Assembly (NCBI GenBank): GCA_016935915.1
Contig: JAFGQB010000009.1
Span: 1 to 64,000, forward strand
Reading direction: 5' to 3'
DNA: 64,000 nt
Origin: Spirochaetota bacterium
GTDB taxonomy: Bacteria; Spirochaetota; GWE2-31-10; JAFGQB01
The first letter of the stretch is position 1, and the number at the start of each line of letters is the position of its first letter. Shown here one piece after another: positions 2,751-54,877 of the stretch. The notes under the pieces are model-generated. The model worked only from the letters and a program-made list of their open reading frames with translations. It was not told where the DNA came from and did not search any database. Position numbers and translations under genes: made by a program.

Positions 2751-5510
2751 ATGAGTAAAGGATTTAATTCAATTAAACAATATTTATTATTAAACGATAA
2801 AAGAAGAAATTTAACCAGTATATTTTTAATGCTTGGCTTGATTTTATTGTTTTTTCTTCCTGGATTACTTCAGTTTGAAAAGGTTATGAGAGTCGATGGT
2901 CCATGGCAGGCTTTCCCGAAAATGCTTTCAATTGCCAGGCACATTAAAAACGGTGAGATTCCCTTATGGAATCCAGAAACGTTCCTGGGCGGAAAACCAT
3001 TTTATTCTATGTATGAAGGACCTTTATATAATGTGTTTCTTTATCCTTTTTATCTGATAGCTGATCCTGATAATTACACTCAATCCTATTATGTTTTATA
3101 TCTGATTCCGTATATGCTGTATGTTTTGTTCGGAGCATTGGGCTTTTATTATTTCGGAAGAAAAATATTAAAAATAAATTATATTGGCTCTATTGTCCTT
3201 GGTTTATCTTATTCTTTGGCTCCTCATATTATGCTTTATATTGATTCATTCCATCCCGCTGTTATTTATGCTCTTATTCCATGGACACTCTACAGTATAT
3301 GTCAGTATCTGGAAAATAGAAAATTAAAATGGTGGCTTTTAGGTTTATTGTTTTTAGTTATGATGGAATTGGTCTATGACACTAATACAATTATAAGGGT
3401 TTACTTTGTAATTTCAGTAATTTTATTTTTAATCTGGATATTTATTTATTCAAAAAGAGAAAAACCGATATTAACTCTATTCGGTCTTGGCACTATGTTT
3501 GTATTCAGCATCTGTATATTGGCTTTTATGTGGACTTCAATATTTGAAGGTGTTTCATGGTTTAAAGATTCCAATAAGATGACTTATAAGGAAATCGTAA
3601 AATATTTTACTTCTAATGTATGGCCGGGATTTTTGGTAACATTATTTATACCGAACTTAACCGGATTAAATCCGGGTTATCATGCCTGGGGTAAGGCTAT
3701 AGGAGGAGATCATAATATTATTATGACCGGCGGACTTGCTATAGGTTTCTGTGTATTTATATGTATTATATATGTTATTTATTATAATAAAACAAAAATG
3801 TTTAAAGACATTAAAAATAAAAAGAAGAGAGATGGTCAAGCTGACAAAACAAGAGAAAGTGAATTTGAAAAAAGCCATAATAAAGACAGAATACTTTTTT
3901 CATGGATAATTATCAGCTTGATAATTTATTTTACAACAATACTTGTAATGATGGGCAAAAATACTTTTGTTTATTTTATTTTATGTAAAATACTCCCTTT
4001 TTTATTTGAAGTCCCATATCCGTTTTATTTCAGATTTGCGCAGTGTTTAAGCGCTTCCATCCTTGCAGGGATTGGGATTTCGCTTATATTTGAACATAAA
4101 TATATGAAAGAAAAAATAATAAATATAAAATTTATCACAATATATCTTTTTGTAGTTGTTATTTTTACATTGATCCCTTTTTTTGAAATGATGGATGTTC
4201 AGTTAATTAAGGATAATACAAATAATAATTTACCATATATTAAGTCCTTGCTTGATCATTTTAATTCACAGTCTGTTAAACAAATTCCTGCATATAAGAC
4301 CATTAAATATTTTAATGAACTTAAATGGCTGTTATATAATCCGTTTGCTTATGCTGCATTGTTTTTTGTTTTTTTAATTATTTTTTATAAACTGGAACCC
4401 GAGAGTTTAAAAATTTTCATTTTTATAATAATTTTATTTGATGTGCTTTTCTTCGGTTATATCAGTTTTTATAAAAATGATAACATCGGACGTTTAGGTG
4501 ATAGAACTATTCAGCAAAAAATGAACATGCTCAGAGCTGGTGTTCCCAGGGAACACCCGATCTTTAAGTTGGCAGTGAAACTGAAGGAAAAACTTAAATC
4601 TGATAATTACAGATTTATTTCCCCTGTTTCAGACAGAGACAATGCAGCATGGATTATGGGTGAAAGATCCGCCTGCGGTTATGACGGCAAACCTATTTTT
4701 AAAAATGTTCAAGAAGCTTTAACTGTTTTTATGAATAATTGGCCATATCATATGACCACTATAAATTTTCCTATTCACTTTTTAGATAACATGAACATAG
4801 GGCATCTTGTTATTCCTGAGGGATTGTTAGATGAAAAAGGTATTGAAGATATTGTTTTTTATACAAATAATCCTGAATATTCAAGACTTAATAATTCAAG
4901 GGTTTACAGAATCAAAAACATGGAAGTCGAAAAAAGCGTCAGAAATGAAATAAAATCTTCAAGGCATCATTTAATAAAATTAAAAGAACCAATGCCTTAT
5001 TTATATACTCTTGATAAACTGATTGTTTTACATGAATTTGATCAGTTAAATGAATTGGTTAATAATGATTTGAGAAAGCATATCTGTATTAATTATGATG
5101 ATGCTGCTGAAATTCCAATTAATATATCCTATTTTTCAACCGATCAACCGGATTATTTGGAGTATTTCAAAAAAGAGCAGGCGATAAATAGAATTTTCAA
5201 GTTCAATCGTTCCCTTGCCAATAAATTATCATTAAATGCTGAAATAAATAAAAGCACAATGCTGGTAAGGTCAGAAGCATACCATAAAGACTGGAAGGTA
5301 TTTATTAATGGTAAAAAAACAAAGGTATATAATGTAAATTATCTTCAACAGGGGATTTATCTAGAGCCTGGAGAATATGAAATTGTTTTTGTTTTTTTTC
5401 CTGAGAGTTTAAAAAAAGGATTGATATTATCTTTATATGTTGCCGTAGCTTTGTTATTATTTTCCGCAATATGGTTTATAATTGAGAGGAAAAAAATAAA
5501 AAAGGATTAA
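2751..5510 (+). CDS. YfhO-like large polytopic membrane protein, copy 1
   Basis: A 919-residue integral membrane protein of the YfhO family. It has many hydrophobic helices (first near residues 23-43) and the signature external loop GEIPLWNPETFLGGKPFY near 66-83. Helices extend to about 590. A large extracytoplasmic region follows, and the end is YHKDWKVFINGKKTKV, then QQGIYLEPGEYEIVFVFFP, then a last helix and a basic tail. In Firmicutes, YfhO works with a polyprenyl-phosphate sugar synthase and a GtrA-type flippase to glycosylate surface polymers. That role is only inferred here. A -10-like TATAAT at 2721-2726 precedes it, and GGAG lies 8 bases before the ATG. The next gene, 4 bases on, is a paralogue. 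Confidence 0.85.
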   Translation: MSKGFNSIKQYLLLNDKRRNLTSIFLMLGLILLFFLPGLLQFEKVMRVDGPWQAFPKMLSIARHIKNGEIPLWNPETFLGGKPFYSMYEGPLYNVFLYPFYLIADPDNYTQSYYVLYLIPYMLYVLFGALGFYYFGRKILKINYIGSIVLGLSYSLAPHIMLYIDSFHPAVIYALIPWTLYSICQYLENRKLKWWLLGLLFLVMMELVYDTNTIIRVYFVISVILFLIWIFIYSKREKPILTLFGLGTMFVFSICILAFMWTSIFEGVSWFKDSNKMTYKEIVKYFTSNVWPGFLVTLFIPNLTGLNPGYHAWGKAIGGDHNIIMTGGLAIGFCVFICIIYVIYYNKTKMFKDIKNKKKRDGQADKTRESEFEKSHNKDRILFSWIIISLIIYFTTILVMMGKNTFVYFILCKILPFLFEVPYPFYFRFAQCLSASILAGIGISLIFEHKYMKEKIINIKFITIYLFVVVIFTLIPFFEMMDVQLIKDNTNNNLPYIKSLLDHFNSQSVKQIPAYKTIKYFNELKWLLYNPFAYAALFFVFLIIFYKLEPESLKIFIFIIILFDVLFFGYISFYKNDNIGRLGDRTIQQKMNMLRAGVPREHPIFKLAVKLKEKLKSDNYRFISPVSDRDNAAWIMGERSACGYDGKPIFKNVQEALTVFMNNWPYHMTTINFPIHFLDNMNIGHLVIPEGLLDEKGIEDIVFYTNNPEYSRLNNSRVYRIKNMEVEKSVRNEIKSSRHHLIKLKEPMPYLYTLDKLIVLHEFDQLNELVNNDLRKHICINYDDAAEIPINISYFSTDQPDYLEYFKKEQAINRIFKFNRSLANKLSLNAEINKSTMLVRSEAYHKDWKVFINGKKTKVYNVNYLQQGIYLEPGEYEIVFVFFPESLKKGLILSLYVAVALLLFSAIWFIIERKKIKKD

Positions 5511-5514
5511 TGAA

Positions 5515-8262
5515 ATGAATTTATTTGAATCAGGCTTTTTTAAAAGAATCAATTTAATGTTTACAAAATCAGATGAAAAAAGCGATTTATTTTATATAAT
5601 ATTGATCCTGCTTATAATCCTTTGCTTTATGATGCCTGCGATTTTCGGCAGGGAATATTTATTGCGCGTTGACTCCCATAAGCAGGCTCTCCCCCGGCTT
5701 ATTGCAGTTTCACGTTTTGTTCAATCGGGAGAGATACCTTTATGGGATCCTAACTGTTTTTTGGGAGCCCGTCCATTTTACGCTATGTATGAAAGTCCCA
5801 TTTATAATATATTATTATATCCTTTCTATTTGTTTGCTGACTGCAACAATCAGACTCAAGCTTATTATGTACTTTTTTTAATTCCTTTTATTTTATTTGT
5901 AATGATATCAGCTGTTGGAAGTTATTTATTTTCGCGGCAAATAATCAGGATGAACAAACTCGGGTCGTTGATAACGGGAATTGTATATGCATTAAGCCCT
6001 CATATGGCAATTTCCATGATGTCTCTTCATAATACGGTCGTTTTTGCTTATTTGCCATGGGTTTTATTTGCAGCCTGTAAATTTTTTGAAAAAAGAAATA
6101 TCAGTTGGTGGGTGATAGGTGTCATTTTTTTAGCCATGCTATCTACTGCCTGCAACACCAATTTTACTATAAGAGCATATTTTGTTACAGCGGTAATTTT
6201 ATTCTTTGCATGGATTTTTATTTACAGAAAGAAAGATAGATCATTTATGGCATTTGGTTTGATAATAGCAATGTACATTTTCAGCATTATTTTATCTGCT
6301 GTTATGTGGCTTTCTGTTCTGGAAGGAATATCATGGCTTTTAACAGGTACAAAATTTACTTATGAACAGATAGTAGAATATTTTACCTCAAATGTTTGGC
6401 CTGGACATCTAGTCACTCTTTTTATTCCAACTTTTAGCGGTTTAAATCCCGGGAATAATGCATGGGGAAATGCTATCGGGGGAGATCATAATATTATATT
6501 TACAGGAGGATTGTTCATAGGTCTTGCAATATTTTCCTCTTTGATTTTCTGCATTAATTTTTATAAAAAGCTTGGTAATGATGAAAAAAAGAAAAAAAAA
6601 TCAAGAAAGGTTTTTAAAAAAGATGCGGTTGATGAATTGGATAATAATGAAATAATATATCACTGGTTAATTATTGGTTTTATAATTTATTCCATAACAA
6701 TCCTGGTCATGATGGGTAAATATACGCCGGTGTATAGAATTTTATGCACAATGTTACCGTGGTTTTTTCAAGTTCCGTTTCCTTTTTATTATCAATTTGC
6801 GCAATCATGGGCAGCATCTTTACTGGCTGGAGCAGGGATCTATCTGTTGTTTAATAATGAAAATATAATTGATGTTATTTTTATAAGAAAATATATTTTT
6901 TATTATGCTGCAGTTGTTGTATTTTTGGGATTCATAACTCTAATTGAAAAATTTAATGTAAATCTTCTGCATGATGTGTTTTATTTAAGCAAAAGATACC
7001 CACAAATTGTTGAAATTATCAAACAGTTTAATTCTGATTATATATATTCTTGGCAGTCTTTATTTTTTTTAAATAAGTTCAATTGGTTTATTACAAATCC
7101 TGTTCTTTATTTTTTTATATTTTTGATTTTGTCGATTTTATCCGTATTTTTTATGAAAAATGAAGTTATAAAGAAGATAATGTTGATAGGATTATTATTT
7201 GATTCTTTATTTTTCGGTTATATTACATATTTTAAAAATGATAATATAACATATCTTAATGAAAGAAATTTACATGATTATTGGACGCAGATGAGGTCGT
7301 TTACGCTGGAAGATTATCCGTACTATAAAGTTGCCGAAACAGTAAAAAAGATATCGGAAGAAAATAAATACAGGTGGATGTCTGCAATATCAGACAGGGA
7401 CAACATGGCATGGATTACCAACGGGAGGTCAGCATTCGGTTATGATTCCAAGCCTTTAATAACGGAAATGAATAATGTTATAAATTCATTTATGCAGGGA
7501 TGGCCTTATGAGCTGTATTCCAACTATTTTCCAATAAATTATTTAAGAAATATTAATGTAAAATACCTTGTTGTACCGGAAGGTCTTTTGGATGATGACG
7601 GAATGAAAATAAAAGTAATAAATGGCATGAAGGTATATGAAATATATAACAATGATAAAATAAAAGAAAAAGAGGAGAGGGGATTTAATTTTTTTACTTT
7701 ATTAAAAAATGAAAATATTAATCTTTTAGATCTTCAAGAACCGCTTCCTTATATTTATACCCAGGACAAATTAATTAAGATTGATCATGATAAACAGCTA
7801 GACTATCTTATTAATGAAAATCTTAAAAAATATGCAGTTTTAGATAATGATAATAATAAAATTGTAATACAAAATGATTTAATTTCAAAATCAATAGATG
7901 ATTATGAAGAAAATTTTAATGATCTCCAGAAAGCAAATAATATAGTTGTCATTAAAAGAACCGCAAATACTCTTGAACTTAAAGCTGATATAACAAAACC
8001 CTCATTGCTTATAAGATCAGATATGTACCATAAAGGATGGAGTGTCAGAGTGGACGGAATCAAAAAAGAATTGATTAAGACCAATTATATGCTGCAGGGT
8101 GTCTGGCTTGAAAAAGGGGAACATACAGTGAAATTTTCATTTTTCCCCGATAGCATTAAAAACGGATTAATTATAACTTCAACTGCAGTAGTTATTTTAA
8201 TTATTTTATTATTAGTTGAATTGTATTTAAAAAGAGATAAAATCAGACAAAAAATAAGATAA
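5515..8262 (+). CDS. YfhO-like large polytopic membrane protein, copy 2
   Basis: A 915-residue paralogue of the preceding protein, colinear with it over its whole length. It has the same N-terminal helix, the same loop (GEIPLWDPNCFLGARPFY), a shared GGDHNI segment after a conserved TSNVWPG motif, a shared ISDRDN..AWI segment near 620, and the same C-terminal YHKGWSVRVDGIKKE then LQGVWLEKGEHTV domain. It starts 4 bases after the first gene with AAAAGGATTAATGAAATG, so the pair is translationally linked and surely one transcript. A tandem pair kept at full length suggests either a heteromeric complex or two acceptor specificities. Function is inferred from the YfhO family (transfer of sugars to surface polymers outside the membrane). 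A basic Lys/Arg-rich loop near 355-375 should be cytoplasmic. Confidence 0.85.
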   Translation: MNLFESGFFKRINLMFTKSDEKSDLFYIILILLIILCFMMPAIFGREYLLRVDSHKQALPRLIAVSRFVQSGEIPLWDPNCFLGARPFYAMYESPIYNILLYPFYLFADCNNQTQAYYVLFLIPFILFVMISAVGSYLFSRQIIRMNKLGSLITGIVYALSPHMAISMMSLHNTVVFAYLPWVLFAACKFFEKRNISWWVIGVIFLAMLSTACNTNFTIRAYFVTAVILFFAWIFIYRKKDRSFMAFGLIIAMYIFSIILSAVMWLSVLEGISWLLTGTKFTYEQIVEYFTSNVWPGHLVTLFIPTFSGLNPGNNAWGNAIGGDHNIIFTGGLFIGLAIFSSLIFCINFYKKLGNDEKKKKKSRKVFKKDAVDELDNNEIIYHWLIIGFIIYSITILVMMGKYTPVYRILCTMLPWFFQVPFPFYYQFAQSWAASLLAGAGIYLLFNNENIIDVIFIRKYIFYYAAVVVFLGFITLIEKFNVNLLHDVFYLSKRYPQIVEIIKQFNSDYIYSWQSLFFLNKFNWFITNPVLYFFIFLILSILSVFFMKNEVIKKIMLIGLLFDSLFFGYITYFKNDNITYLNERNLHDYWTQMRSFTLEDYPYYKVAETVKKISEENKYRWMSAISDRDNMAWITNGRSAFGYDSKPLITEMNNVINSFMQGWPYELYSNYFPINYLRNINVKYLVVPEGLLDDDGMKIKVINGMKVYEIYNNDKIKEKEERGFNFFTLLKNENINLLDLQEPLPYIYTQDKLIKIDHDKQLDYLINENLKKYAVLDNDNNKIVIQNDLISKSIDDYEENFNDLQKANNIVVIKRTANTLELKADITKPSLLIRSDMYHKGWSVRVDGIKKELIKTNYMLQGVWLEKGEHTVKFSFFPDSIKNGLIITSTAVVILIILLLVELYLKRDKIRQKIR

Positions 8263-47233: not shown

Positions 47234-47468
47234 AATTTTTTCGGTAGTTTAAATAATTACCATAAAACTACCATACTCCTGTAAATTAAGTCTTTTTTTA
47301 AGTTTAAACCTTAAAAGTTTTAACTGTCAATTCAAATAATTGCGAAAAAGTATAGAAATTATAACAGGAACATTATTTATTAAACTTTAAATTTATTGTC
47401 TTTTAAAGCACATTCTAAGAGAAATAAAAAAATTTTATATCAAGCCTTATCATATTTAATATTTCAAA

Positions 47469-47544
47469 TGGAGGTGATGGGAGTCGAACTCACTGCCTTT
47501 TGAATGCCATTCAAACACTTGAGCCCAATTGAGTTTGCACCTCC
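47469..47544 (-). tRNA. tRNA-Ala (anticodon GGC), degenerate
   Basis: A 76-base cloverleaf on the minus strand. Acceptor arm GGAGGTG/CACCTCC is perfect, and the anticodon stem TTTGA/TCAAA has loop ATGGCAT, giving anticodon GGC with U33, A37 and the A32-U38 pair known to mark tRNA-Ala(GGC). The T loop TTCGACT is canonical. However, the T stem has an A-C mismatch, the D stem has only three pairs, and position 3-70 is A-U instead of the G-U that alanyl-tRNA synthetase reads. No CCA follows. It looks like a tRNA-Ala(GGC) that is decaying or has changed role. Confidence 0.65.
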
Positions 47545-47599
47545 GTTAAATAAATAATAAATATATTTTTTTTAAAAATATGTCCAATAATATTATTGG

Positions 47600-47767
47600 T
47601 TAAATTTTTTTATAATTTTTGACTTTTTTATTTTTAAGGCAGAGATTGCACCTTGAGTCGGAACAGAACTGGCATGCAAAGCAGTCTTTGCAGTTTTTCT
47701 TTTTGTTTTGAGTTTTTTCCGGTTGCCATACCAAGCCCTCATCCCCGGGTAATTGCACTAAAGGCAT
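47600..47767 (-). CDS. Small cysteine-rich protein
   Basis: A 55-residue protein starting MPLVQLPGDEGLVW, with a cysteine cluster CKDCFACQFCSDSRCNLC near residues 31-48 (six cysteines in paired CxxC spacing), then a Lys-rich tail. It could bind one or two zinc ions or an iron-sulphur cluster. The ATG at 47767 has AAGGA upstream. An in-frame TTG upstream is less likely. No function is known to me, though similar small Cys-rich ORFs occur in anaerobes. It lies 55 bases upstream of the degenerate tRNA-Ala, in the same direction. Confidence 0.6.
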   Translation of the reverse strand: MPLVQLPGDEGLVWQPEKTQNKKKNCKDCFACQFCSDSRCNLCLKNKKVKNYKKI

Positions 47768-47828
47768 TTTTTTTCCTTGTGCTAAATTATAATACAAAAT
47801 TTTTTTTTCAATTAAATATTTACAAAAA

Positions 47829-47969
47829 ACAGTAATTGTTTCACTGTCCTACTCATTATATCCCTTGACACATCATTAAAACTTTTTATAACAAAAAAAT
47901 AATCTCGAATTGCTTAATAGGCACTCTATAAAGGAGATTAGAATAGAAAATGATAAGGTTTTTTTCTGA
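47829..47969 (+). pseudogene. Relic of the trpB promoter and first codons
   Basis: This stretch aligns with 52760-52893, the promoter, leader and start of trpB. Both contain TATATCCCTTGACAC, a -10 TATAAC, AGGCACTCTAT, and the first codons. In the relic the start codon is ATA (47928-47930). The following frame reads IKEIRIENDKVFF then TGA (47967-47969), against MKDIRIESDKGFFG in trpB. The homology stops there. The -35 (47865-47870) and -10 (47887-47892) are intact with a 16-base spacer, so it may still be transcribed. Codon differences are mostly conservative, suggesting a once-functional copy. Confidence 0.8.
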
Positions 47970-48073
47970 TAATACTGAGGATTGGACATGAAGACTTTAG
48001 TATAATAAGCAGATTGACCTTGCATAGATTAAACAGTTTTAATTGTCTTCTGCTTAGAAGAACAGATCATGAC

Positions 48074-48119
48074 GTAAAAAAAGTTCGCCCGGAGTAAAGA
48101 ACTCCGTTCAGCGAACTTT
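48074..48119 (-). terminator. Strong intrinsic terminator of the PQQ/trypsin-PEGA transcript
   Basis: Nested hairpin: outer arm AAGTTCGC (48081-48088) pairs with GCGAACTT (48111-48118), and an inner stem GGAGT/ACTCC sits inside. On the minus strand the hairpin is followed by a run of seven T. It lies 27 bases after the stop of the leftward PQQ-like gene. Confidence 0.85.
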
Positions 48120-48145
48120 ATATATTATATTGATGTTAATAGTTT

Positions 48146-50263
48146 TTATCTTTTATTAAAGGTCAGAAAGTATGCTTCACTGTTTTTAATATCAGCGTCT
48201 GTCGGGCATGCGTCTGAAGGGAACATCTGATATGCTTCGATTTCTTTTTTACCTGTTGGATGTACCAGCACAATACCTTCTTTATATAGTTCTACTCTCG
48301 GGAAGAAGATGAATCTTCTGTAATCAATATAACTTGTATAAAAAGCAAAAGTATACATTTCTTCTGACGCATAATATACTCCGTGCTTTTCATAATACCA
48401 GTCTTTAAAATCGCCGAGATCAGTATAATAGTGATAACCTATTCTTATCAGATTCAACCTTTTATTTGATTTTAGATCAACAACCGTTAAATACGTTCTG
48501 GAGGGTATTATTCCGCCCTGAATTGATGTAGCCCGTGATATTTGTGTAATCAGGGCATAATTCGCCATTGTTTTTATTTCAGCAAACATCAAAGTATTTG
48601 AAGTTTTTGAAGCAATATCTATAGAAACATCAATTGCTTTTGTGTCCGGATTAAACAGGAAAAAACCTCTTTTGCTGTCAAATATCGCAACTTTTTTCTG
48701 ACTCTTCAGATAGCAGATTGCGCTTATTTTACTGCCAAGTTTTAAATCCTGTTTCAGGAAAACTTCTCCTGTTCGTATGTTGATACCGTAAATATTATTC
48801 CTATCAGCGAAATAAGCTGCATCGCCACTTCTTGTGATATCCACCATATCCCATTCTGTTTCAAGTTTCCAGACTGTTCTTCCTGTGTCAAAGTCAACTT
48901 CCGCAATTCCTTGGGTTTTATTGTAAAATACAAAAAACTTTCTGTCATCCTCATCATAATCAAAATATACTATATTTTTTAATGAGTCATTAGTCCAAAG
49001 ATTTTTGCCTGTCTTTATCTCAATGTTCTGCAGCTTTGTTTTATCAGCAATCACCAGATGTTTTTCTTTTATCAGCCTTGTAATTACATTTTTTTCCGGA
49101 CTTTTTGCTTCCCACTTTACCGTACCTGTTTCCAGATCGTATGCTGTATTGGTCATGCCTTTGTCATTCTCAACAAGGAACAGATCTTCAATCATGATTG
49201 AGTCTGTAATTGATTTACTTTCGACTTTCCATACTTCTCTTCCTGTTTTAAGGTCAATGCAATATACATTGTCCTTATCGGTGATGAAAGCATTATTATC
49301 CTTTTTAAAAGCAGTCAGACGTCGTGTTGTAGTAAAACTTTTGTCCCAGACTATCTCTGCTGTATTGGTGTTAATGCACAATAATGAACAGCTGTTAGTT
49401 CGATCCCACTGCAGGAACAGATAATAATAACCGCCGTATTTTTCAACAACCACATTGTTTAAACTATCAATATTTGATTTTTTTCTGTATTTAATGTTTG
49501 AAATGACTCTGCCTGTGTCAAGACTTAAGAAAGCAATTTGATAAGGATCAACCGACAAGAAATATATATCATTGTCAATCCGGTAAAAATTATAGAAATG
49601 AATTTTTTCGCCGAAACCTTCGATTTTATTGATAAGTTTTCCCTCATCCATAGAATATATTGACAAATTTTTTCCTGTTTCCAATATTACGATTCTGTTC
49701 AAGTCAAAATACATTTTAGGTCTGTGGACATCATATAAAAGAACATAATCAATTTTATAAACCTCATCTCCGTTGGCAATTTTATATGCATAAAGAGCGC
49801 TTTTTTTATTTTTGCTGAAAGTATTCACCAGCAGTAAGTCTTTTAGCAGATAGCATTCTTTTAACGAAGATGCGTCTATTGCTTTTGAAAAAATTTCTTT
49901 ATTATTTGAATCAAAAACTTTTATGCCGTTTTTCTCTTCATTTTTAACATAATATCCGTTGCTCAAGAAGTAGTATTCATCATCATCAATCGACACCTTC
50001 TGATAATCATATGCATATTCGAATTCCAGAGCTGAACTCCTGGAATTTCCTTTTCCATCAAATTTCAATTTATTTGCATAAGGCACTCCGTTTGTAATTC
50101 CGGTGTTTAATACTTCTAAATATTCAGGATTATCCTTTTGATCAAGAAAGGAGAAGTGTTGTCCTTCAGCCGCCTTCTTTTTCCATAAAATTTTACCTTC
50201 TTCCTGTGAAAAAAGAAAAAAGGCACAAGACAATAAAATAAAAATATAGTGTTTTTTTTTCAT
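48146..50263 (-). CDS. Secreted PQQ-type beta-propeller protein
   Basis: A 705-residue exported protein: signal peptide (1-19, FLFSQEE), then many blades of the PQQ-enzyme-like type, recognisable as DTGRVISNIKYRK, NTAEIVWDKSF, KTGREVWKVES, ETGTVKWEAK, KTGKNLWTNDS and DTGRTVWKLETEW. No dehydrogenase active-site residues are evident, so it is probably a scaffold or sensor in the periplasm, not an enzyme. GGGAG precedes the ATG. It is 101 bases after the trypsin-PEGA gene in the same direction and shares its terminator. A role in binding a ligand or in envelope surveillance is possible but not shown. Confidence 0.78.
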   Translation of the reverse strand: MKKKHYIFILLSCAFFLFSQEEGKILWKKKAAEGQHFSFLDQKDNPEYLEVLNTGITNGVPYANKLKFDGKGNSRSSALEFEYAYDYQKVSIDDDEYYFLSNGYYVKNEEKNGIKVFDSNNKEIFSKAIDASSLKECYLLKDLLLVNTFSKNKKSALYAYKIANGDEVYKIDYVLLYDVHRPKMYFDLNRIVILETGKNLSIYSMDEGKLINKIEGFGEKIHFYNFYRIDNDIYFLSVDPYQIAFLSLDTGRVISNIKYRKKSNIDSLNNVVVEKYGGYYYLFLQWDRTNSCSLLCINTNTAEIVWDKSFTTTRRLTAFKKDNNAFITDKDNVYCIDLKTGREVWKVESKSITDSIMIEDLFLVENDKGMTNTAYDLETGTVKWEAKSPEKNVITRLIKEKHLVIADKTKLQNIEIKTGKNLWTNDSLKNIVYFDYDEDDRKFFVFYNKTQGIAEVDFDTGRTVWKLETEWDMVDITRSGDAAYFADRNNIYGINIRTGEVFLKQDLKLGSKISAICYLKSQKKVAIFDSKRGFFLFNPDTKAIDVSIDIASKTSNTLMFAEIKTMANYALITQISRATSIQGGIIPSRTYLTVVDLKSNKRLNLIRIGYHYYTDLGDFKDWYYEKHGVYYASEEMYTFAFYTSYIDYRRFIFFPRVELYKEGIVLVHPTGKKEIEAYQMFPSDACPTDADIKNSEAYFLTFNKR

Positions 50264-50364: not shown

Positions 50365-52509
50365 TTAAAATAAAATATTGATTTCCATTGCTATTGTGTT
50401 ATTGTTTTTAATCTTGATATAACCTGCAGTCTGTATTTGTTTATTATAATATACAAAACATGGTATTGAGCAGAATATCAGAACAAGTCCGGTGCCTAAA
50501 ACACATCCTGCTGCAACTCCAAGTCCTATGGTGTTCTTTTCAATCTGGCTTTCGGATATCATCATCCTTGCAAACGGACCTATATAGTAAATAGGTGTTG
50601 CAATTGCTAAAATCAAACCAATACTGCTGGTAATAATACCGCTTACCAGCAGGCCTGTACCTGCATATCTGTAATTCTTGAGCTTTTCGTAAGCTATTGC
50701 ATATTTTATTACTATTTCAGTATCCTTATTTTGTTGTAAGCTGAATGTTTTTTTAAAAGTGTCATATCCTGATAAATCTACTTTCAATTCATAACCTGTA
50801 CCGACAGGCAATTGAATTTTTTCTTCTTTAACCTTATCCGTATAATCTTTGCCGTTTATGAAAATCTTGGATCCTGTCTTTAAAGATTTTAAGACTAGAG
50901 ATGATGTAATGTATTCGAATGTTTCGGTTATTTCATAATCGCTTTCTTTAACTTCAATATTGATTTTTTTACTTATGATCGCAATACTGTTTACCTGAAC
51001 AGACCATTTACCTGATGATATCAGCAAGGTATCACCTTTTTTATATTTCAATGTTTTATCTTTTCCCGATGTCAATATTATTTCGGCATCATTGGGGAGC
51101 TCTTCTTTGAAAGAAAGCTTATAAGCTTTTTCCAGTTTTACTGCAAATGAAGTTTTTTTAAAATTTTCAACTGTAACTGTTTTTTCTATCTGCACATAAC
51201 CGTCAAGTTTAATGATAATTTTTTTCTCACCACCTTCAATTTTATCCGCTTCATAAGGTGTCTTGCCTACAAGAACATTATCTATATAAATATCAGCTTT
51301 TTCCGGAGTTGATTTTATTGACAATGAACCGGTTATTTTTTTCATTAAAGGCACATATAATGCTGCTCTTCCCCCTGTATTTTCAACATAAACTTTCTCT
51401 TCAGAAATTTCTTTTTTTGACACAATTTTAATTATTGAAGATCCTACAGGGATGTTCATGGTTAACGGGGCAGATCCGATTAATCTTCCGTTTAAATAAA
51501 CTTTGTGATCGCTGCTTTTTTTTATTATTACCCTGCTTGAAAGTATAAGCTCACCTTTAGATGTATATCTTTTTTTTACTATTGATATTGCGTCTTTTTC
51601 ATTATTTTTAAATATGTAGGGAACTTCATATTTTGTTGCGAACTCTCTGATTTTTTTTGTTGGGATTGCAAAAAAGATATTATTAGCCCCCCCAATCATA
51701 GCTGTATTAATACCTATAACTTCACCTTTTGTACTGAACAGTGGTCCTCCGGAGTTTCCGAAGTTAATGCTTGCTGTGTGCTGAATCCCAAGGTTATCGC
51801 TTCTTAAAGATGATATTACACCTTCTGATAAAGTAGATTTAAAATCTTTTAAGAATCCAAGTTTATCAGGCAGCGGATAGCCAATTGCAATGACTTTCTG
51901 ACCGACTTTTAAATTTTCTGTTTCCCCGAAAGGTATTGCCATAAAATTAGCATTTATGCTATCGATCTTTAAAACCGCTATATCCATATCCTTGTCAAGT
52001 TTTATAAGTGTAGCGGTATAATCTTGTGTATTATCGACCTTGACATGATATTTAATCTGATAGTTAAAAGCTAAAGTATAAAGATCGTTTTTTAATTTAT
52101 TGAATTCTGCATCGTTCATAAGTGATAGAGGTATAATTCTGTTAAAATAGGCAACTAATGAATTGTATATTCTGTTTTTAACTATTTCAGGATCAGCCTT
52201 TTCATCTTCCTGACTATCTTCAAAAACATGAGCATTTGTTAAAACAATTCCGTCTTTAGTAACTATAAATCCGCTGCCTGATGATAGAGGTATATAATTA
52301 TCCAGAAATTTTTCCTTAAATTCATTTTCTATCTTCTGGAAAAGATCATGGTTTTTTACCAATTTTGAATCAAAATAGACTGAATGAGACACATAAACAA
52401 CAGCACTACTGTAATAATCAAATACTTCATCAATACCAAAATCCTGGCTTGAAACAAAATTCAGTAAATTTATGATTATTATAATTATTAATACAATTTT
52501 TTTGTTCAT
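50365..52509 (-). CDS. Secreted trypsin-like serine protease with PEGA domains
   Basis: A 714-residue protein: signal (1-21), trypsin-like domain of the DegP/HtrA fold with catalytic His93 (LTNAHVFED), Asp175 (DMDIAVLK) and Ser252 (FGNSGGPLF). There is no PDZ domain. PEGA domains follow (VYLNGRLIGSAPLTMNIPVG near 340; STPEKADIYIDNVLVGKTPY near 398; a third near 540). The C-terminus has two hydrophobic helices (about 615-640 and 664-692) and a short tail AMEINILF. It is likely an envelope quality-control or processing protease that binds peptidoglycan or surface partners through PEGA. It is followed by the PQQ-like gene. AAGGAG lies before the ATG. Confidence 0.88.
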   Translation of the reverse strand: MNKKIVLIIIIIINLLNFVSSQDFGIDEVFDYYSSAVVYVSHSVYFDSKLVKNHDLFQKIENEFKEKFLDNYIPLSSGSGFIVTKDGIVLTNAHVFEDSQEDEKADPEIVKNRIYNSLVAYFNRIIPLSLMNDAEFNKLKNDLYTLAFNYQIKYHVKVDNTQDYTATLIKLDKDMDIAVLKIDSINANFMAIPFGETENLKVGQKVIAIGYPLPDKLGFLKDFKSTLSEGVISSLRSDNLGIQHTASINFGNSGGPLFSTKGEVIGINTAMIGGANNIFFAIPTKKIREFATKYEVPYIFKNNEKDAISIVKKRYTSKGELILSSRVIIKKSSDHKVYLNGRLIGSAPLTMNIPVGSSIIKIVSKKEISEEKVYVENTGGRAALYVPLMKKITGSLSIKSTPEKADIYIDNVLVGKTPYEADKIEGGEKKIIIKLDGYVQIEKTVTVENFKKTSFAVKLEKAYKLSFKEELPNDAEIILTSGKDKTLKYKKGDTLLISSGKWSVQVNSIAIISKKINIEVKESDYEITETFEYITSSLVLKSLKTGSKIFINGKDYTDKVKEEKIQLPVGTGYELKVDLSGYDTFKKTFSLQQNKDTEIVIKYAIAYEKLKNYRYAGTGLLVSGIITSSIGLILAIATPIYYIGPFARMMISESQIEKNTIGLGVAAGCVLGTGLVLIFCSIPCFVYYNKQIQTAGYIKIKNNNTIAMEINILF

Positions 52510-52789
52510 TCATATTCTCCTTGTTTGATATTTAAAATTAATATTAACAAAATTATTTTTATATGTAAATGTTAATAAAATTTAACACAAATTAAATAAA
52601 TTTCTATTTTTTTTTTGAATTTTTTTTTTTTTATTAACTTCAAATCATGTTGATCTCATGTATTAAAGCAGTCTTACCGAAAATTTTTTACAAACTAATC
52701 GGCTGTTATAATAAAATTAAATCATTTGTAATTAAAACTATTTATTGAAAAACTGATATACAGTGATGTCACTGTTCTTCTTATATCCC

Positions 52790-52818
52790 TTGACACTTCA
52801 GTAAAACTTTTATATAAC
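52790..52818 (+). promoter_or_regulatory. Promoter of trpBA
   Basis: TTGACA at 52790-52795 and TATAAC at 52813-52818 with a 17-base spacer. The leader is only about 27 bases, too short for an attenuator or T-box. A decayed copy of the same promoter is at 47865-47892. Confidence 0.75.
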
Positions 52819-52851
52819 AAAAATCATCTCAAATTACTTAAGAGGCACTCT

Positions 52852-54105
52852 ATGAAGGACATAAGAATTGAAAGTGATAAGGGTTTTTTCGGGCAGTTTG
52901 GCGGTAGATATTCGGCAGAGATATTAAGACCGGTTCTTCTGGAGCTTGAAGAGGCTTTTTGTAAATATATAAAAGACAAGAACTTCTTAAATGAGTTCAA
53001 TGATACATTGAAGAATTTTGTAGGAAGACCGACTCCTCTTCTTTTTGCGGAAAATGCAACCAGAGAGCTTGGTGGTGCAAATATCTATTTGAAGCTTGAA
53101 GGTCTTGCCAATACAGGCGCTCATAAGATCAATAATGCAATAGGACAGGCACTTTTGGCAAAAAAAATGGGTAAGACCAGGATCATTGCGGAAACAGGGG
53201 CAGGTCAGCATGGTCTTGCAACGGCATGTGCTTGTGCAAGACTGGGACTGGAGTGTGAAGTTTTTATGGGCGAAGTGGATATCGCAAGGCAGCGCCCCAA
53301 TGTATTCTGGATGGAGCTTTTCGGAGCAAAAGTGACTCCTGTTACAAGCGGAACAAAAACATTGAAAGATGCTGTAAATGCCGCTTTAAGAGAATGGTCT
53401 GAAAGAAAAATGGACACTCATTATCTCTTGGGAAGTGCACTGGGACCCTATCCGTTCCCGGACATGGTGAGGGAGTTTCAGTCTGTTATCGGAAGGGAAA
53501 CAAGAGAGCAGTTCAATGAGCAAAAAGGAGGACTTCCTGAAGTTTTGATCGCATGTGTAGGAGGAGGTTCAAATTCCATAGGTTTTTTTTCTGAATTCTT
53601 AAATGAAAATAGCGTAAGAATGATAGGTGCCGAAGCAGGTGGAAAAGGAGATAAACCCGGTGAAAATGCATCAAGAATCGCAGGACCCGGTACATTAGGC
53701 ATAGTACAGGGATATAAGTCTCTTTTTCTTCAGGATGATGAAGGGCAGCTTCTTCCTACCCATTCGATCAGTGCAGGTCTTGATTATGCAGGGATCGGAC
53801 CACAGCTTGCCTATCTTGCACAGATCGGCAGAGTTGAGTTCACAAGCGAAAAAGACAGCGAGGTTATAGAGGCTTTTAAGTTTTTTGCAAAAACCGAAGG
53901 GATAATTGCAGCATTGGAATCAAGCCATGCATTAAGCTCCTGCATTAAGATAGCAAAAAAGATCGGTAAAGGTAAAAATATTATTGTGAATATATCTGGA
54001 AGGGGAGACAAGGATATTTTTATAACGGCTTCAGCAATGAATGACAATAAATGGTTTCAATTCTTAAAAGACGAGGTTAAGAGGCATGAACAAAAAAACA
54101 AATGA
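52852..54105 (+). CDS. trpB: Tryptophan synthase beta chain
   Basis: A 417-residue PLP enzyme that joins indole and serine. The PLP Lys92 is in GAHKINN, the catalytic Glu114 in AETGAGQHG, and the phosphate loop is CVGGGSNSIG. The segment before the PLP lysine reads LKLEGLANTGAHK where most TrpB proteins have KREDLNHTGAHK, so this belongs to a divergent TrpB branch. AAGAGG lies before the ATG. trpA starts inside its last codons. No other trp gene is here, so this pair alone could make tryptophan from indole or complete a pathway encoded elsewhere. Confidence 0.95.
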   Translation: MKDIRIESDKGFFGQFGGRYSAEILRPVLLELEEAFCKYIKDKNFLNEFNDTLKNFVGRPTPLLFAENATRELGGANIYLKLEGLANTGAHKINNAIGQALLAKKMGKTRIIAETGAGQHGLATACACARLGLECEVFMGEVDIARQRPNVFWMELFGAKVTPVTSGTKTLKDAVNAALREWSERKMDTHYLLGSALGPYPFPDMVREFQSVIGRETREQFNEQKGGLPEVLIACVGGGSNSIGFFSEFLNENSVRMIGAEAGGKGDKPGENASRIAGPGTLGIVQGYKSLFLQDDEGQLLPTHSISAGLDYAGIGPQLAYLAQIGRVEFTSEKDSEVIEAFKFFAKTEGIIAALESSHALSSCIKIAKKIGKGKNIIVNISGRGDKDIFITASAMNDNKWFQFLKDEVKRHEQKNK

Positions 54106-54877
54106 TAAAATTAAAGAAATAAAAAACAGTGGCAGAATTGGATTCATGGGGCATGTTATTGCAGGATTTCCCGATTTTTCAAGTTCACTGCAGGCAGCTA
54201 TGGGCATTTGTGAGGGTGGATCCGATTTTCTTGAAATACAGTTTCCTTTTTCCGACCCAACCGCAGACGGCCCTACCATTGAAGGAGCCTGTTATAAAGC
54301 ATTGGAGAATGGATTTAAAATTAAAGACGGCTTTAAACTCATAGAAGAACTTAATAAAAAAAGTGATACGATTATATTAATAATGACTTATGCCAATATA
54401 ATTTTTAAGTATGGCATAGAGAATTTTGTTGAAAAATCTGTAGACGCAGGAGCATCCGGTTTGATTATTCCTGATGTACCTATTGAAAGGGATGAGGGAT
54501 TGAATGAAATAGCTTCAAAAAATCGGATCGATAATATTTTAATTGCAACTCCAGGGGACAGTGCTGAAAGGATAAGAGAGCTTTCAAAGGCAGGCAGCGG
54601 ATTTCTCTACACTGTTGCCCGAAGAGGAATAACAGGTAAAAAATCCGAGTTCAATAAAGAAGCCAAAGAATGGTTTGAACTTGTGAAAAATAATTCTACT
54701 CTGCCTATAGCTGTAGGATTCGGCATAAGAACAAAAGAACAGATCAGACAGTTAAAGGATTATTGTGATATTGCCATAATGGGCAGCCACCTGGTCAATA
54801 TCATTAATGATGCCTGTCAGAATAAAAAAGATATTAAAAATGAATTGAAACTTACTGTGGAAAATTTATTGAATTAA
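54086..54877 (+). CDS. trpA: Tryptophan synthase alpha chain
   Basis: A 263-residue TIM barrel that splits indole-3-glycerol phosphate to indole. Catalytic Glu50 is in DFLEIQFPFSDP and Asp61 in TADGP. The phosphate-binding motifs are SGFLYTVARRGITG near 171 and IAVGFGIRTKEQ near 211. The N-terminal strand reads FMGHVIAGFPDF, unlike the common PYLTAGDP, matching the divergence of TrpB. It overlaps trpB by 20 bases and has AAGAGG just upstream of its ATG, so synthesis of the two subunits is coupled. Confidence 0.94.
   Translation: MNKKTNDKIKEIKNSGRIGFMGHVIAGFPDFSSSLQAAMGICEGGSDFLEIQFPFSDPTADGPTIEGACYKALENGFKIKDGFKLIEELNKKSDTIILIMTYANIIFKYGIENFVEKSVDAGASGLIIPDVPIERDEGLNEIASKNRIDNILIATPGDSAERIRELSKAGSGFLYTVARRGITGKKSEFNKEAKEWFELVKNNSTLPIAVGFGIRTKEQIRQLKDYCDIAIMGSHLVNIINDACQNKKDIKNELKLTVENLLN

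Follow-up and report, generated by a model that had tools for sequence, protein, structure and literature searches.

Pseudogenes of prokaryotes have been surveyed (PMC522871). Some 4.9 kb before the intact trpB gene of a Spirochaetota bacterium, within the 64-kb stretch of DNA analysed as a whole (the window), lies a segment that resembles the partial gene duplications and pseudogene fragments of bacterial genomes in that it is a short, disabled gene start near its parent, with a lost start codon and a premature stop. It differs from them in that it also carries the promoter, with both boxes intact, and in that it comprises 13 codons only, which is likely too short for protein-based surveys. 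The locus further resembles the repeats created by Campbell-type (single-crossover) integration, with a truncated copy on one side, the complete gene on the other side and both in the same orientation. Unlike such an integration, the DNA between the repeats contains no mobility gene, the region of the truncated copy matches no known plasmid or phage, and an empty site was seen in none of the relatives examined, which do not include members of the same family or genus. Literature searches revealed nothing specific. The upstream segment, in the following called the left copy, is a real feature and most probably no more than an ordinary scar left when a piece of DNA was partially duplicated.

The two copies of the trpB 5' edge

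The features of the two copies and of the adjoining genes are as follows.

47829-47966 (+): left copy, the decayed version of trpB codons 1-13 with their promoter and leader (alignment; two copies only in the genome)
47865-47870 (+): -35-like box TTGACA of the left copy (sequence)
47887-47892 (+): TATAAC, the -10-like box that follows after a 16-bp spacer (sequence)
47928-47969 (+): remnant of trpB codons 1-13, with ATA in first place and G11V, up to the TGA at codon 14 (sequence, alignment)
48077-48125 (no strand assigned): stem-loop behind the PQQ gene, predicted to be able to end transcripts both ways (sequence, fold)
52760-52890 (+): right copy, in which promoter, leader and trpB codons 1-13 are intact (sequence, alignment)
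52760-52775 (no strand assigned): perfect palindrome ACAGTGA-TG-TCACTGT (7-2-7, ACAGTGATGTCACTGT), the leftmost part of the right copy (sequence)
52790-52818 (+): trpB promoter-like TTGACA-17-TATAAC (sequence)
52852-54105 (+): trpB, tryptophan synthase beta chain, intact (NCBIfam TIGR00263, 570 bits)
54086-54877 (+): trpA, tryptophan synthase alpha chain (NCBIfam TIGR00262)

Alignment of 47829-47966 with 52760-52890 yields 116 matches, 14 substitutions and 9 gap columns, which corresponds to 89% identity without gaps and to a divergence of about 0.12 substitutions per site. All gap columns lie upstream of about position 47897 and none falls within the 13 codons. The local alignment score of 154 is far above that of every one of 1000 dinucleotide shuffles (mean 17.5, maximum 28). 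The homology to trpB is thus well beyond chance, which bears out the claim of the first-pass annotation that the start of trpB down to codon 13, together with its promoter and leader, recurs at the left. A BLAST search of the whole genome (3.7 Mb in 310 contigs, a 78% complete draft) identified these two places only, the query itself (E 3e-67) and the other copy (E 9e-32), followed by a next-best match with an E value of 0.005. Since there are only two copies, the segment does not belong to a dispersed repeat family; a MITE-like element, which requires more than two copies, was rejected. In a self-comparison of the window, the pair is the second strongest repeat, the strongest being formed by two paralogous membrane-protein genes. 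The latter (2751-8262, plus strand) are large tandem genes encoding 919 and 915 aa, the DNA of which is about 66-73% identical over parts.

In the right copy, the palindrome is followed by the promoter, a short leader with the Shine-Dalgarno-like site AGAGG, and the trpB start. In the left copy, the palindrome is broken and AGAGG is replaced by ATAGG. The start codon reads ATA (47928-47930), and IKEIRIENDKVFF precedes TGA at codon 14 (47967-47969); both the changed start and the stop, which had been annotated initially, are read directly in the sequence. Gly11 of TrpB, which is Gly in 82 of 85 aligned relatives, is Val in the left copy. Because of the exchange of ATG for ATA, the replacement of Gly11 by Val and the stop at codon 14, the left copy is unable to make TrpB. 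As the start, the Shine-Dalgarno-like site and Gly11 are changed and a stop occupies codon 14, the left copy is the derived, broken one at these sites. The promoter boxes had been described as still intact, which holds for TTGACA and TATAAC but not for their distance, since the spacer comprises 16 bp in the left copy versus 17 bp in the right copy.

The sequence has been duplicated and the copy is broken. With high probability, the left segment goes back to a partial duplication of about 135 bp at the trpBA 5' edge and has since drifted to a non-coding fragment; we infer both its origin as one piece of roughly that length and its present neutral drift. The promoter, the leader and the 13 codons would have been copied as one segment, for which template switching and single-crossover integration of DNA carrying the piece are candidate routes, and the left copy would then have drifted neutrally into a non-coding fragment. 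Its boxes may still start a short RNA of about 230 nt, which the terminator following the PQQ gene would halt; a function is not needed to explain the left copy. The restriction to two copies in the genome speaks for this explanation, as do the alignment score, the lost start codon and the other defects of the coding start, the altered Shine-Dalgarno-like site, the even spread of the substitutions, the sharp ends of the homology and an RNA fold that, with the terminator excluded, does not surpass shuffles. Against it count the intactness of both promoter boxes despite about 0.12 substitutions per site and the usual loss of junk this old from the genomes of bacteria.

The palindrome, which lies shortly before the -35 box of trpB, is a possible operator of a local regulator. 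It was rejected as the operator of a regulon, being a single site in the genome at up to one mismatch. Conservation of the trpB promoter in the relatives did not exceed chance. trpC is separated from trpBA in the genome and resides on another contig (C123); a promoter common to trpBA and that contig was dismissed, the matches being AT-rich only.

The two-gene block between the copies

Both copies are located on the plus strand and, as the initial annotation had it, form direct repeats around two genes; these lie on the minus strand.

48146-50263 (-): PQQ_2 / BamB-like beta-propeller gene, within the direct repeats (Pfam)
50365-52509 (-): trypsin-like (HtrA-type) protease with a PEGA domain (Trypsin_2 + PEGA), within the direct repeats (Pfam, NCBIfam)

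The initial annotation had considered an insertion of this block at the trp locus. The block might be foreign DNA that arrived on a circle bearing the trpB 5' segment and integrated through a single crossover, leaving direct repeats at the trp promoter. Such an event would be a mechanism for the duplication and is compatible with the partial duplication proposed above, but we regard it as improbable. A truncated left copy and a complete right copy in the same orientation are the geometry that such an integration leaves, and no full-length orthologue of the PQQ gene was found in 40 relatives, all of them outside the family and genus of the host. However, the block consists of the PQQ_2 and Trypsin/PEGA genes only, with no transposase, integrase or relaxase, its GC content of about 0.30-0.35 is like that of the surroundings, and full-length relatives of the PEGA protease are encoded elsewhere in the host genome as well as in one further genome of its order (G004). 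Nor did region 47400-48146, to which the search for plasmid and phage sequences was confined, match any of them, and a phage or plasmid origin of that region was rejected.

Among the relatives whose TrpB is closest, none shares the gene order of the window around trpBA. In one of them (G001), trpBA is positioned behind what look like anthranilate-pathway genes, and in two others (G002 and G008) it has other neighbours; the TrpB of G002 is 77% identical to that of the host. Given closer genomes, this scar of a small rearrangement adjoining trpBA may help to reconstruct the scattering of the trp genes in this spirochaete order.

Extent of the duplicated segment

The homology stops sharply at both ends of the segment of about 135 bp. 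Downstream, the flank 47970-48145 scores 19 against the continuation of trpB beyond codon 13, compared with a shuffle mean of 18.0. Upstream of 47829, only AT-rich runs align, with a score of 26 (shuffle maximum 30) and, for a wider flank, of 35 (shuffle maximum 43); a longer duplication was rejected on these shuffle-level scores. Since homology ends on both sides, the evidence points to the duplication of some 135 bp of 5' sequence and not to a lost second trpB.

The loss of a second trpB had been considered in the first-pass annotation, and is not supported by these comparisons. According to this scenario, a whole second trpB, or trpBA, was once present at the left and was deleted save for its first 13 codons, which we consider unlikely. 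The left copy does include the true start region, and a 12-base match to trpA (AAGAACAGATCA) occurs at about 48058 with a score of 27. A score as high is reached by 8.5% of shuffles (P = 0.085) and by 2 of 25 control stretches, so that the match was rejected as a trpA relic. The downstream flank does not rise above the shuffles either, and in the loci of relatives that were examined trpBA occurs once per locus. Conservative codon changes had been taken to suggest that the left copy once coded for a protein; they provide no evidence for it, as four of the six codon substitutions are at third positions (binomial P = 0.10) and only 13 codons are present. Even if real, the excess at third positions could stem from constraint on the intact copy alone. 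A Trp-containing leader peptide at 47950-47991 (MIRFFSDNTEDWT, one Trp) was taken as a chance occurrence because it precedes no trp gene on that strand and the AGGAG lies at a distance of 13 bases.

The promoter of the left copy and neighbouring features

RNA from the left promoter would, as judged from the predicted fold, stop at the stem-loop 48077-48125. That the left copy serves as the working promoter of a small RNA (about 47898-48125) sharing the trpB leader is very unlikely, even though TTGACA and TATAAC are intact at a 16-bp spacing and a terminator is located downstream. No plus-strand gene follows, and the core promoter, with 2 substitutions in 37 positions versus 12 in 93 elsewhere, shows no significant excess of conservation over the remainder (Fisher P = 0.35, no outgroup); the substitutions in the pair thus seem evenly spread. 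When the terminator is excluded, the predicted RNA folds no better than shuffles (z = -1.2), and the segment has no match in Rfam. There is no sign of remaining function or of selection for a short RNA from the left copy. A duplication of a promoter together with a gene start shows how promoters can reach new places; here, no gene stands behind the copied promoter.

An assembly error that joined the trp promoter regions of two strain variants is likewise very unlikely, though the fragmented draft (310 contigs, 78% complete) might provide the opportunity; the damage to the left copy does not resemble what a strain allele of a functional gene would show, and the flanks of the left copy are wholly different from those of the right copy. 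It is highly improbable that the left copy is kept as the promoter of a short untranslated RNA that mimics the trpB leader, titrates a binder of the leader or palindrome and thereby tunes trpBA.

Two further features are found to the left of the left copy. A tRNA-like sequence at 47469-47544 (minus strand) with the anticodon loop GGC attains 27.1 bits versus the Rfam gathering score of 29, was missed by ARAGORN and is unique in the genome; it is probably a decayed or odd tRNA. At 47600-47767 (minus strand), a Cys-rich open reading frame encodes 55 aa (KNCKDCFACQFCSDSRCNLCLK) that match no Pfam or NCBIfam entry. Because it has relatives in G004 and in a second genome (G031), with 56-58% identity, it is probably a real small protein, of a size that a length cut-off would miss.
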